This document shows, piece by piece, positions 10,505-46,958 of a stretch of DNA of 46,958 nucleotides. Source of the stretch: Methanosuratincolales archaeon (GTDB taxonomy: Archaea > Thermoproteota > Methanomethylicia > Methanomethylicales > Methanomethylicaceae); NCBI GenBank assembly GCA_014361445.1, contig JACIVQ010000007.1:1-46958 (forward strand), read 5' to 3'. Within the stretch, counting starts at the first letter, position 1. Every line of letters starts with the position of its first letter. Under the pieces are notes generated by a model. The model was not told where the DNA came from and did not search any database. It saw only the letters and a list, made by a program, of their open reading frames with translations. Made by a program: the position numbers and the translations under genes.

Positions 10505-10596
10505 GGGCCCGTAGCTCAGTACGGTAGAGCAGCGGGCTTTTAAATAAAAATGAAGAGACCCGTTGGTCTCGGGTTCAAATCCCGACGGGCCCGCCA
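10505..10596 (+). tRNA. tRNA-Lys (TTT) with 15-nt intron
   Basis: Acceptor arms GGGCCCG (10505-10511) and CGGGCCC (10586-10592), discriminator G and encoded CCA. Anticodon stem GCGGG / CCCGT with loop CTTTTA|A gives anticodon TTT. An intron lies at the canonical 37/38 position. T arm TCGGG-TTCAAAT-CCCGA. An upstream TTTATAAAA at about 10447-10455 is a candidate TATA box. Confidence 0.94.
10543..10557 (+). other. Archaeal tRNA intron (tRNA-Lys, position 37/38)
   Basis: A 15-nt intron with a bulge-helix-bulge. The central helix CTTT (10537-10540) pairs with GAAG (10552-10555). The bulges are TAA (10541-10543) and AGA (10556-10558), with cuts between their second and third bases. The anticodon stem acts as the outer helix. 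The inner helix is only two A-T pairs. Confidence 0.88.
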
Positions 10597-43322: not shown

Positions 43323-44387
43323 TCATTTCAGTTGGCGTACTAGATCCTGTGCTTCCTTATTTTTACTGAAATAATCTCTAACTGGTGCAAGCAATGTTGA
43401 TAGCTCTTCCGAAACTGCATTCTTGAGATCCAATGGGTGTATCTTTCCTTGGGAATACATTGTCACTAATGCTTGAGCAGACTCGACTATCAAATCCCCC
43501 CCATACCTTGCGTCCCTCTTTATTACAAATTTATCATTTCTATTTAGTATTATGCGAGTGGCTATTTCCAGAATAGGGTTGCCTTCGACGACCATCGGTG
43601 GACAGTATGCTTTATTTATCTTCGACTTTATCTCCTCTGGAGAGTCATGGATAAAAATACAGGTCTCAGGCTTAGATTTACTCATTTTTTGTTCAATCAT
43701 TGCCTCTTCCTCGGTTAGAGTTCCTTCCATCCTACCTTTACCCTGCAAGCCTGGAAGGAGCGGGGTGTGTATGGCGACAGGTTTTTTATATGAATAAACT
43801 TCCGCTACCTCTCGAGCCAAAACATGTGCCCTTCTTTGATCCATGCCTCCTAGGCATATGTCAAGGTCTAAGAAGAAGATGTCTTCTACCTGCATGCATG
43901 GATATATGAGCTTTGAGAAATCAACAACAGATTCGTCCTCCTTTCTGCCCATTATTGTGACCGCTCTCTTTATCCTTGATAACGAGAGGGCTTTTGCGAT
44001 CTTTAATACCCCCTCCCAGTACACTTTATTGTCGACCATTTCGTCAGCTTTTAAAAAGTTCAGCCTACCAACATCTACCCCTAATGCCCTAAGGGAGTGT
44101 TCTATGTAACTCGCACAGGCATTTATCTTGGCTATATCTCCACCAAACTTGTCATTAATCCAAGCGTGCCAAGTCGCCTCCAAAAGAGTCATTTTGACGC
44201 CGACATCCATCAAATCCTTGAGCTTGTTGACCCATATTACCCATCCCAAATGGAACAGACCCGAAGGTTCCACTCCAATGTATCCTTTTGGGGAAGAGTT
44301 AGACTCGAATAACTCTTGGAGATCCTTCCTCGTTATCACTTCCTGTGTATCTTTTATAACCTTCTCCACTTTTGACACGACGTCCAT
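43323..44387 (-). CDS. tyrS: Tyrosyl-tRNA synthetase
   Basis: Class I synthetase for tyrosine, archaeal/eukaryal type. Landmarks: GYIGVEPSGLFHLGWVI (HIGH-like), LDLDICLGGMDQRRAHVLAREVAE, and the catalytic loop EQKMSKSKPET (KMSKS) at about residue 215. ATG at 44387 (MDVVSKVEKVI) matches the family N-terminus. The open frame extends upstream to 44465, but it passes through a strongly structured hairpin and has no support. GGAGATGTTGGATC precedes the ATG. The start sits 23 nt downstream of the hairpin RNA at 44410-44513, suggesting control at the leader. Confidence 0.95.
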   Translation of the reverse strand: MDVVSKVEKVIKDTQEVITRKDLQELFESNSSPKGYIGVEPSGLFHLGWVIWVNKLKDLMDVGVKMTLLEATWHAWINDKFGGDIAKINACASYIEHSLRALGVDVGRLNFLKADEMVDNKVYWEGVLKIAKALSLSRIKRAVTIMGRKEDESVVDFSKLIYPCMQVEDIFFLDLDICLGGMDQRRAHVLAREVAEVYSYKKPVAIHTPLLPGLQGKGRMEGTLTEEEAMIEQKMSKSKPETCIFIHDSPEEIKSKINKAYCPPMVVEGNPILEIATRIILNRNDKFVIKRDARYGGDLIVESAQALVTMYSQGKIHPLDLKNAVSEELSTLLAPVRDYFSKNKEAQDLVRQLK

Positions 44388-44409
44388 GATCCAACATCTC
44401 CTACTATTA

Positions 44410-44513
44410 GGCAAGCTGCCGTGTTGCCCGATGCTAACACCCAACCTCATCGAAGGACGTTTCATCCAGCTCAGGTGGGCTCTCTCTCATCGGGATCTAT
44501 CCGGCAGCTTGCC
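44410..44513 (-). ncRNA. Candidate structured RNA B, upstream of tyrS
   Basis: A 104-nt long hairpin. P1 is 12 perfect base pairs (plus-strand 44410-44421 with 44502-44513, GGCAAGCTGCCG/CGGCAGCTTGCC). P2 is 7 pairs (44427-44433 with 44488-44494). P3 is 7 pairs with one bulged base (44440-44447 with 44473-44479). The apical part is a ~25-nt loop region. A TATA-like box lies about 25 nt upstream on the minus strand. It matches no RNA class I recognise, and box C/D signatures are incomplete. It may be a tyrS leader or a free RNA. Confidence 0.6.
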
Positions 44514-44535
44514 CATGAATTTAATGAAAACTTCC

Positions 44536-44543
44536 TTATTTAA
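44536..44543 (-). promoter_or_regulatory. TATA-like box for structured RNA B
   Basis: Minus-strand TTAAATAA; its centre is about 25 nt upstream of the first base of the 12-bp terminal stem, the distance expected between a TATA box and an archaeal transcription start. Confidence 0.5.
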
Positions 44544-44551
44544 CTATTTGA

Positions 44552-44647
44552 ACCGTGGGGCTGTTGCGGGTGTGGGTTAGGTCATGATCATCGCTGAGCA
44601 ACGCTCGACTCACTTGACCCCTTCGACCCGCCATATCGCCCCACGGT
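44552..44647 (-). ncRNA. Candidate structured RNA A, between pheT and tyrS
   Basis: A 96-nt hairpin. P1 is 10 perfect pairs (44552-44561 with 44638-44647, ACCGTGGGGC/GCCCCACGGT). P2 is 6 pairs (44566-44571 with 44626-44631). P3 is 5 pairs (44580-44584 with 44615-44619). A terminal hairpin GAGC-AAC-GCTC lies at 44596-44606. It is GC-rich compared with its flanks, as expected for functional RNA in an AT-rich genome. No ACA box follows, so an H/ACA RNA is unlikely. It matches no RNA class I recognise. Confidence 0.6.
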
Positions 44648-44670
44648 GCTCGGCTCCCACCTCATCGCAC

Positions 44671-44680
44671 TCTTATATCT
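44671..44680 (-). promoter_or_regulatory. TATA-like box for structured RNA A
   Basis: Minus-strand AGATATAAGA; its centre is about 25 nt upstream of position 44650, next to the 5' end of the RNA A stem. It could also be the promoter of a longer tyrS transcript. Confidence 0.5.
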
Positions 44681-44764
44681 GTAATCACTTAAAGATAAAC
44701 TTTGCAAATTGAAAGTGGCGTCTATTCCCTCAATCCAAATCTAATTACGAGTTAAAAAGCTATA

Positions 44765-46411
44765 TTAATGCCCTAATAGTGGCGTGAGGTCACATTCTAA
44801 AGCCCCAACGGGAAATTCTAGACCAAAATTCACGAGCACCTGAGGTGAGATCTCTCCAACTACGCCGATCTCAGCACCATCGACTATAATCTTGGCAGCG
44901 CGCCCTTCTAGGAAGGGCTGTCCATGGTGCGGCTCAAATTTTATCGTCTTTGACAAGTTCAAAAACAGAGAGGCGGCCACCGCTTGTATGTCCTCGTAAC
45001 TCACCTTATGGTCCGCAATAACTGCTGCCAAGTGAGTTGAAACTTTTGGTAAACCTTTTTCAACGAAAACCACATCGCCACATTCGAAAATTCGCTGGGG
45101 ATATGCATGGTGTATGTTCTGACCCAAAAATTGTAAAAGTTTTGGCAAAATACAATCCCTAAGAGCTGCGAACTCTGATGATACTGGATTAATAAGTTCT
45201 ACAAGATCCCTTTTACCCATTAACGTCTTATCTTCTAAGACTGACTTGTTACTGAGTAGGTATGTAATCACTTCTTGAAAGCCCATACCAATCATTAGAT
45301 CTCTTACACGCTTCCTTATTCTACTCCCTGGAAGTGGTCTCCCTATAGTTGCAACTCGCGGTACCTCTGGCTGTATATTATTCAGACCGATAGCTATCAC
45401 GATGTCTTCCACCAAATCAACCTCATGAAGAATGTCTGCCCTATAAGGGGGCGACAACACAACAAATTTTTCATCCTCTTTTTCAACATCATGCCCCATC
45501 TTCCTTAGTAGACTTAAAATCTCTTCTGTTCCTAGGTCTAAGCCTGAAACTTTCTTTATCGTCAACGGACTTAAACAAGTGCGGATAAAGTCAAGTTTTG
45601 GTGTTAAAATCTCCCGCCCTTCATACGCTATTTCCACTTGTTGAAGAGCCCCTCCTCTTTCCATTAATGATGTTGCCAAAATATTTAAACAAAGGTTTAT
45701 TGTGCGCTCTTCGGTCCCCGTGACATCAATTATAAGGTTTTTTGTGTCTTCTGTAACCTTTGTATCTTCACTGTTTATTATGGGGGGCATGGAGAGGACT
45801 CTTCCTTTTGAGTCGCTTAACAAAGGATATTTCCTCTTCCCCTCTAATATCCAAGCATACTCTGACCCCTTGGGAGTTCTTTTCAGTATCTCGAAGCCGC
45901 TCATAACCTCATTGAAACCCAAAGGGACGAATCTTATATCATCAGGGGGGACTGCGGCATAAGTAAGCGGAGGGGAGACCTTATCCATATCATATATTCC
46001 AATGGACCCCTTCCTCCTATTAGAGCAGTAAGTGCTATGAAGCTTCTCTTGAAGTTGCATCATCTGGATCAAAGCCTCTTCGTCTAAACTCACATCACGG
46101 ACAACCGCTGATACTATATACGGGCGGACTTCTGCCGTAGAGGGATCTACCCTAATACTCACTGGTCTTGCGCCCTGGTAATATTTGACCTTCAGTCCTG
46201 ATCCACCATGGTAGAGCCTTACTCCCCGGGCGATCCCTTCGCTACTGAAAAAATCAGGCCTGTCCGAAGTGACCTCCAAAGTTATCTTGTCTCCAACTAT
46301 CTGCTCTGGCTCACATTTCAAGGCAGAGAGCGTTTCATAGATTATGTCATTTTCGAGATTGAGCCCAATGAGTCGTTTAAGGTCTCTCATGTCGATATTT
46401 ATTGTAGGCAT
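44765..46411 (-). CDS. pheT: Phenylalanyl-tRNA synthetase beta subunit
   Basis: Large subunit of the heterotetrameric PheRS. Landmarks: MPTINIDMRDLKRLIGL at the start, ITLEVTSDRPDFFSSEGIARGVR, the editing-site-like B3/B4 region (GSIGIYDMDKVSPPLTY...FVPLGFNEVMSGFEIL), the B5 domain with VDLVEDIVIAIGLNNIQPEVP, and a catalytic-like core ending with GRAAKIIVDGAEIGVVGEISPQVL. About 548 residues, the shorter archaeal/eukaryal form without the C-terminal anticodon domain of bacteria. ATG at 46411 is 8 nt after GGGGTGG. pheS lies directly upstream, so the two subunits are co-transcribed. Confidence 0.96.
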   Translation of the reverse strand: MPTINIDMRDLKRLIGLNLENDIIYETLSALKCEPEQIVGDKITLEVTSDRPDFFSSEGIARGVRLYHGGSGLKVKYYQGARPVSIRVDPSTAEVRPYIVSAVVRDVSLDEEALIQMMQLQEKLHSTYCSNRRKGSIGIYDMDKVSPPLTYAAVPPDDIRFVPLGFNEVMSGFEILKRTPKGSEYAWILEGKRKYPLLSDSKGRVLSMPPIINSEDTKVTEDTKNLIIDVTGTEERTINLCLNILATSLMERGGALQQVEIAYEGREILTPKLDFIRTCLSPLTIKKVSGLDLGTEEILSLLRKMGHDVEKEDEKFVVLSPPYRADILHEVDLVEDIVIAIGLNNIQPEVPRVATIGRPLPGSRIRKRVRDLMIGMGFQEVITYLLSNKSVLEDKTLMGKRDLVELINPVSSEFAALRDCILPKLLQFLGQNIHHAYPQRIFECGDVVFVEKGLPKVSTHLAAVIADHKVSYEDIQAVAASLFLNLSKTIKFEPHHGQPFLEGRAAKIIVDGAEIGVVGEISPQVLVNFGLEFPVGALECDLTPLLGH

Positions 46412-46413
46412 CT

Positions 46414-46958
46414 TCAAAACCACCCCTTCTCTCTTAACATGCCTAAGTTTGAAGTATGAAGTTCGCGGATGTCGTCAACCCCTAACCTAATCATCGCCAG
46501 GCGGTCTATACCGAATGCCCACGCTATCACGGGGAAGTCTATGCCTAGTGGTTTCGTCACCTCTGGTCTGAACAGTCCAGAACCCAAACACTCTATCCAG
46601 CCAAGGGCTGGGTGCTTCACATATGCTTCTATGCTAGGTTCTGTGAACGGGAAATAGCTCGGTTTGAACTTTATCTCTTTGAACCCAAGCTGCATCGCAA
46701 ACTCGTTGAGTATTCCTAATAGGTGCCTAACATTGATTCCATAATCCCCCATTATCCCATCAAGCTGGCAGAACTCCACCATGTGTTTCGAGTCGATTAC
46801 ATCTGGTCTGAATACCTTTGAAAGACAGAAAGCCTTGACTGGTGGGGTTTTGTGTTGGGACAGATACCTGACCGATACCGACGTGGTCTGGCTTCTCAGA
46901 ATTGGTCGGCTTGCTACCTCTCTGCTCCATTTGTAACCCCACCCCTTAGATCCGGTCT
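46414..46958 (-). CDS. pheS: Phenylalanyl-tRNA synthetase alpha subunit (partial)
   Basis: C-terminal part of the catalytic subunit of PheRS, with the 5' end beyond the right edge of the window. The reading frame is open to the edge: after SKGWGYKWSREVASRPIL come RSQTTSVSVRYLSQ and KTPPVKAFCLSKVFRPDVIDSKHMVEF (class II motif 2 region), then QLDGIMGDYGINVRHLLGIL, ALGWIECLGSGLFRPEV, and the motif 3 arginine in AWAFGIDRLAMIRLG. A Met at 46782 is internal, not the start. The visible part is about 181 residues. The stop lies 2 bp before the pheT ATG. Confidence 0.95.
   Translation of the reverse strand, partial: TGSKGWGYKWSREVASRPILRSQTTSVSVRYLSQHKTPPVKAFCLSKVFRPDVIDSKHMVEFCQLDGIMGDYGINVRHLLGILNEFAMQLGFKEIKFKPSYFPFTEPSIEAYVKHPALGWIECLGSGLFRPEVTKPLGIDFPVIAWAFGIDRLAMIRLGVDDIRELHTSNLGMLREKGWF

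Follow-up and report, generated by a model that had tools for sequence, protein, structure and literature searches.

Two clamped hairpins beside tyrS as predicted H/ACA guide RNAs for 23S rRNA in Thermoproteota

Introduction

H/ACA ribonucleoproteins are built on guide RNAs, with L7Ae bound at the kink-turn and Cbf5, Nop10 and Gar1 on the remainder. In productive archaeal guides the ACA must lie 14 nt beyond the upper stem (PMC4652768). Several guides of this class act on helix 69 of the large ribosomal RNA. For the third hairpin of HgcG/Pab40 (Pa40.3/Pf7.3), the target is P. abyssi L2016, the helix-69 counterpart of E. coli 1915 (PMC4652768, PMC2584109). In the haloarchaeal HP1-HP2 pair (Hvo1-Hvo2), the first hairpin is predicted for L2621, equivalent to E. 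coli 2586, and the second for 1915/1917 (PMC2584109, PMC4652768). Yeast snR191 and human U19 are H/ACA guides for helix-69 pseudouridines (PMC2584109).

Here, two tandem hairpins from an archaeal genome, H1 and H2, are described. Taken as a whole, the evidence makes it highly probable that they are new, widely distributed H/ACA guides. The third hairpin of HgcG/Pab40/Pf7 resembles H2 in being of H/ACA type with a helix-69 target (predicted in the case of H2), in its CUUCGAUGA kink-turn strand and in its GUGUUA 3′ guide strand. However, HgcG combines several hairpins in one RNA, whereas H1 and H2 each stand alone with a clamp of their own; furthermore, the HgcG hairpin addresses E. coli 1915 (GUAAC[U]), while the H2 guide best fits U1921. 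H1-H2 and haloarchaeal HP1-HP2 are both pairs of H/ACA hairpins, a likeness drawn from hairpin order and reported targets; unlike the haloarchaeal pair, that of Thermoproteota is linked to tyrS and clamped. Other single-hairpin H/ACA guides of the same phylum likewise carry a kink-turn but, judged by description, mostly lack the lower stem, which in H1 and H2 is complete and followed by an outer stem. snR191 and U19, also compared by description, have a two-hairpin hinge-ACA architecture unlike that of H1 and H2.

The predicted targets fall in the helix-69 bridge and the peptidyl-transferase centre, both of them functional centres of the ribosome. The pair suggests that paired guides for both centres, reported in euryarchaea, extend to Thermoproteota. 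Across this large archaeal phylum the guides are unannotated via Rfam release 15, as they give no match above threshold.

The locus

The window, meaning the whole analysed stretch of 46,958 nucleotides, comes from a genome of the Methanomethylicota (Verstraetearchaeota), family Methanomethyliaceae. H1 and H2 lie on its minus strand in the interval between pheT, encoding the phenylalanyl-tRNA synthetase beta subunit (44768..46423, minus strand; TIGR00471, 548.7 bits, above cut-off), and tyrS, encoding tyrosyl-tRNA synthetase (43323..44387, minus strand; PRK08560.1, 447.6 bits, above cut-off). The same-strand neighbours around the hairpins are pheS, pheT, tyrS and dnaG, and the tyrS start codon is 22 nt downstream of the end of H2. 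The region 44380-44680 is single-copy in its own genome. On the minus strand, the region folds at -105.9 kcal/mol against -80.1 kcal/mol for dinucleotide shuffles (z -5.5, 0/200). Two minus-strand hairpins had been described in a first-pass annotation, H1 of 96 nt with a perfect 10-bp terminal stem and H2 of 104 nt with a perfect 12-bp one, and this description holds.

That annotation also drew a link to translation from the two flanking synthetase genes. Genes other than pheT lie upstream of the hairpins in two relatives (G041 and G056), so tyrS is the constant partner. The link to translation survives in a different sense, since the predicted target is rRNA.

Each hairpin had been assigned a TATA-like box of its own. 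For H2 this assignment stands: a putative TATA box, AGTTAAATAAGG (44534..44545, minus strand), lies about 27 nt upstream and is conserved in genomes of the same family. The box first proposed for H1 (44670-44681), 25 nt before the hairpin, is not conserved in relatives. A putative promoter box, AAAGTTTATCTT (44692..44703, minus strand), lies 20 nt further upstream and is conserved in relatives that keep the leader, a 22-nt element, TGCGATGAGGTGGGAGCCGAGC (44648..44669, minus strand), directly upstream of H1. The leader is strongly conserved in most of the family and is absent from G008, G009, G012 and G013; a copy search recovered one occurrence per genome, at the H1 position only. The H1 transcript would thus probably begin with this conserved leader, expressed from the upstream box.

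Anatomy of the hairpins

H1 (44552..44647, minus strand, 96 nt) is defined by its fold, by covariation and by model R2. Its clamp, ACCGUGGGGC, is formed by a 5′ arm (44638..44647) paired with a 3′ arm (44552..44561), the latter placed by covariation and position; compensatory changes occur in 7 of the 9 tested pairs. Within the clamp, the lower stem joins GCGGGU (44626..44631) to ACCCGC (44566-44571), with 100% of cells paired. The alignments place the 5′ guide strand, CGAAG, at 44621..44625; it varies among relatives and outside the family mostly ends in ACGG. The 3′ guide strand, AACCCAC (44572..44578), has a core that is invariant in the family alignment. Above the pocket stands the upper stem, GGGUCAAGU/UCAUGACCU, with the conserved kink-turn strand GAUGA at 44588..44592 and its partner GA after GGGUCAAGU. 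Past the pocket follow the lower stem, A-ACA and then the closing clamp arm. The ACA box (44562..44564), invariant in the family alignment, lies inside the clamp at 14 or 15 nt from the upper stem, depending on how the closing G-U pair is counted. All of these elements are on the minus strand.

H2 (44410..44513, minus strand, 104 nt) is supported by its fold, by covariation, by a weak match to HgcG and by model R1. The clamp, GGCAAGCUGCCG, pairs a 5′ arm at 44502..44513 with a 3′ arm at 44410..44421, both strands being assigned by covariation (compensatory changes in 9/12 pairs in the family and 12/12 in the phylum), and a loop separates it from the lower stem. The latter, also seen in covariation, pairs CCCGAUG (44488..44494) with CAUCGGG (44427-44433). 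Target scans define the 5′ guide AGAGAGA (44481..44487), predicted to pair with UCUU at E. coli 23S 1923-1926, and the 3′ guide GUUAG (44434..44438), predicted to pair with CUGAC at 1916-1920. The upper stem is GCCCACCU/GGUUGGGU, and the kink-turn strand GAUGA at 44447..44451 has its partner GA after GCCCACCU; relatives carry NAUGA or GUGA-type variants of this strand. Beyond the pocket come the lower stem, CA-ACA and the closing clamp arm, again on the minus strand throughout. The ACA box (44422..44424) is enclosed by the clamp, with 14 nt separating it from the upper stem, and exactly this spacing is kept in most tyrS loci carrying H2.

Both hairpins therefore share the anatomy of the H/ACA class. 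In each, the fold and stem covariation reveal a lower stem, an internal guide pocket and an upper stem, and an ACA (ANA) box lies in the range of 14-16 nt from the upper-stem base. Each has a kink-turn above the pocket, of the type bound by L7Ae, with a 10-layer GA stem; counted from the sequence alone, this comprises 8 bp plus 2 G-A pairs in H2 and 8 or 9 bp plus 2 in H1. The order and spacing in H2 fit the productive '10/5/9' fold described for archaeal guides (PMC4652768). The genome itself encodes Cbf5 (452.6 bits) and Nop10 (83.2 bits), both above cut-off. With this combination of features, H1 and H2 very probably belong to the H/ACA guides.

The first-pass annotation had found that no ACA box follows the hairpins and that they match no archaeal RNA class it could name. 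Neither statement is upheld, as both hairpins have H/ACA anatomy, with ACA at 44562-44564 and 44422-44424, and H2 has a sub-threshold match to HgcG in Rfam. The class was overlooked because the ACA had been sought after the terminal stem, and it sits inside.

The Rfam search proposed at that stage gave a divided answer. At the gathering threshold of release 15, the window yields only SRP RNA and tRNAs, with no match at the hairpins. Below threshold, H2 44427-44494 aligns with positions 202-266 of HgcG (RF00064), a guide with experimental support, at 22.6 bits (E 6e-4 in a 1.2-kb scan). Relatives give per-genome E-values of 2.6e-8 (G013) and 1.2e-8 (G041). The best score among 61 genomes, 35.9 bits, is below the Rfam gathering threshold of 77 bits, and H2 is accordingly not filed as an RF00064 member.

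Other candidates were set aside. Rfam matches to mir-3151 and SNORD45 are chance matches, and ARAGORN reported no tRNA in the hairpin region. Inspection of either hairpin found no terminal-stem C and D boxes around internal C′ and D′ boxes, nor was there a C/D match in Rfam at the gathering threshold, and a box C/D sRNA was rejected.

Conservation and distribution

The H1-H2 pair is present in 17 of the 22 family genomes searched, its own genome counted. Family alignments contained 11 distinct H2 and 12 distinct H1 sequences. Changes on both sides of a pair were found in 18/32 pairs of H2 (9/12 in the terminal stem) and in 10/23 pairs of H1 (7/9 in the terminal stem), making the terminal stems the most strongly covarying helices of both hairpins. 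None of 500 shuffles reached the observed covariation score, and control structures slid along the alignment scored far lower. In a phylum-wide alignment of 36 H2 sequences, double changes occur in 31/32 pairs, including 12/12 in the terminal stem, counts that are biased towards the model to which the alignment was fitted.

Model R1, whose E-values are rough, recovers H2 in 86 of 299 Thermoproteota genomes, representing 49 of 131 genera, with one match per genome except in one of the 86, which has two. A comparison of eighty tyrS loci from named genomes with the H2 model found tyrS-linked H2 in records of Methanomethylicota, Bathyarchaeota, Nezhaarchaeota and Desulfurococcales. Model R2 recovers H1 in 17 genomes of the same family, including its own, as well as in more distant lineages. 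In the family H1 is directly upstream of H2; scores are weaker in Bathyarchaeota, Nezhaarchaeota and other lineages.

H2 is encoded on the strand opposite tyrS in four loci (L077, L078, L094 and L106), and its distance from the gene varies elsewhere, so it is not simply a tyrS leader. This arrangement and the covarying terminal stems agree with the earlier suggestion that the hairpins are separate structured RNA genes, and the comparison of relatives that had been proposed as a check returned strong compensatory change in both.

Predicted rRNA targets

The own assembly gave no rRNA match, and rRNA of relatives was therefore used as the target. The guide strands of H2, as 22 distinct guide pairs, were scored at each U of 16S and 23S rRNA, leaving the canonical two bases unpaired; among the added H2-type loci, some that were cut off-centre were left out of guide parsing. 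In three reference rRNA sets, containing 646-881 U sites, the top-ranking site is CUGAC-[U]C-UCUUAAG in helix 69. For the 22 guide pairs it scores 19.97, whereas the best of 200 column-permuted guide sets reaches 16.4. Scans with Methanomethyliaceae guides alone left the sites inseparable, because these guides are nearly identical and diverged ones are needed. Such diverged guides keep their complementarity: UUAAGA, AUAAGA, UUUAGGA and GAGAGA with UCUUAAG, and GUUAG and GUCAG with CUGAC. A manual alignment with helix 69 of E. coli, anchored on the known positions 1915 and 1917, places the U of the site at E. coli 1921. H2 and the third hairpin of HgcG thus share the helix-69 region, at positions six apart. 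From these complementarities it is probable that H2 targets helix 69, an intersubunit bridge, and the odds are about even that the exact nucleotide is U1921.

A somewhat unlikely but substantial alternative is that H2 guides U1915 and/or U1917 through a non-canonical pocket with more than two unpaired target bases. These are the positions targeted by the third hairpin of HgcG and by Hvo2. The window's own guide also has a non-canonical register with a stronger 3′ duplex, in which GAGAGAG could pair fully with CUCUCUU (1920-1926) and GUUA with UAAC, and some relatives of H2 carry GGUUAC, which suits the same flanks. Against this, no register other than the canonical one on U1921 was found to explain the Desulfurococcales-type guides UUAAGA, AUAAGA, UUUAGGA and GUCAG. 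A 1915-type guide like that of the HgcG third hairpin is not present in H2; among H2-type hairpins, it was found only at L105 (Thermoprotei), where, in favour of the alternative, the guides fit U1915 canonically (GUUAC with GUAAC, GGGUCA with UGACUC).

The tyrS-linked hairpin of L105, with U1915 guides like those of HgcG, is a case of natural retargeting. Elsewhere (L180, L186, L187, L190 and L191), GAGAGA is kept alongside other 3′ guides (GUAUUC, GAUAGG, GAUCG). With 3′ guide strands varied in this way, the target position or register of H2 may differ between lineages. In one relative (G009, locus L055), the 23S rRNA is interrupted by some 750 bases that include a homing-endonuclease-like reading frame, LAGLIDADG-type by eye, and split the predicted H2 target site as GUAACUCUGACUCUC ^ UUAAGG. 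As the insert lies within the target site, the H2 guide would be fully pairable with the spliced rRNA only.

For H1, UGGGUU, the complement of the invariant AACCCA, immediately precedes U2586 in 23S rRNA. Scans that left 2, 3 or 4 target bases unpaired gave U2586 as the best site, but 23 of 60 permuted guide sets scored as well and the match is not significant. The fit is confined to the 5′ side of the target: to accommodate the 5′ guide, two further target bases have to stay unpaired, and good pairing of the second half (GACGG with CCGUC) is restricted to lineages beyond the family. The assignment of H1 to U2586 in the peptidyl-transferase centre, drawn mainly by analogy with the haloarchaeal pair, is tentative and falls slightly short of an even chance.

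Mechanism and alternative explanations

In the proposed mechanism, H1 and H2 would be H/ACA guide RNAs of one hairpin each, arranged in tandem. The kink-turn would recruit L7Ae, while Cbf5-Nop10-Gar1 would occupy the upper stem, the lower stem and the ACA. The pocket strands would base-pair with the 23S rRNA flanking a uridine, and Cbf5 would convert this uridine to pseudouridine. H2 would direct the complex to helix 69, at U1921 by canonical two-nucleotide geometry or alternatively at U1915 or U1917, and H1 would direct it to U2586 in the peptidyl-transferase centre.

The constancy of tyrS as a neighbour invites another reading, in which the hairpins act in cis, as leader elements controlling the expression of tyrS or of a pheT-tyrS operon, for instance through L7Ae binding at the kink-turn. 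The 22 nt between the end of H2 and the tyrS start codon in the window are in keeping with such a role, and there is a precedent in archaea, where L7Ae regulates itself through a kink-turn in the leader of an mRNA (PMC6298567). This reading is nevertheless very improbable: H2 lies opposite tyrS in the four loci named above and its distance from the gene varies elsewhere, it is preceded by a conserved promoter-like box of its own, and a leader would need neither a 14-nt ACA ruler nor a pocket complementary to rRNA. The hairpins could also assemble into H/ACA particles that do not modify rRNA and serve instead as chaperones for the folding or processing of 23S rRNA, for which the orphan H/ACA RNAs of eukaryotes are the model. 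The variable 5′ guide of H1, whose predicted target lacks canonical geometry, is compatible with this. However, catalysis is suggested by the conservation of the spacing rules and by the 3′ guide of H1, which is invariant, and homologous Pyrococcus hairpins are active in vitro (PMC6138745, PMC4652768, PMC2584109), which leaves the chaperone role very improbable. Finally, both hairpins are strong intergenic inverted repeats, as would be expected of terminators, of a repeat element or of inverted repeats arisen by chance, with no function as RNA. Virtually no weight can be given to this explanation: covarying stems, the invariant pocket and conservation refute it, the region has no second copy in its own genome, and all but one of the 86 genomes have a single H2 match.

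The guide reading leaves the clamp as an unusual feature. By enclosing the ACA, it places this box in an internal loop with a second helix immediately after, and it poses the structural question of how Cbf5 binds an ACA directly followed by a helix. Our guess is that the outer clamp protects each RNA or helps to excise it. The clamp was also weighed as a bulge-helix-bulge splicing motif, which was rejected, as the internal loops are of another form. The literature searched contained no outer-clamped H/ACA RNA, no helix-69 guide from Crenarchaea and no tyrS-linked guide. In its boldest form, the proposal would make clamped H/ACA RNAs a class found throughout the phylum. A covarying outer helix would close the internal loop that holds the ACA, and the RNAs would be excised or protected as closed hairpins, guide a previously unreported pseudouridine at 1921 and be coupled to tyrS for joint control of ribosome modification and tyrosyl-tRNA synthetase. 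That this full combination applies is unlikely.

Other RNA genes of the window

An archaeal SRP RNA gene lies at 244-558 on the plus strand (Rfam, 146.9 bits). A tRNA at 10505-10593, also on the plus strand, is recognised by Rfam (62.6 bits) and absent from the ARAGORN list; it perhaps has an intron or a long variable arm.
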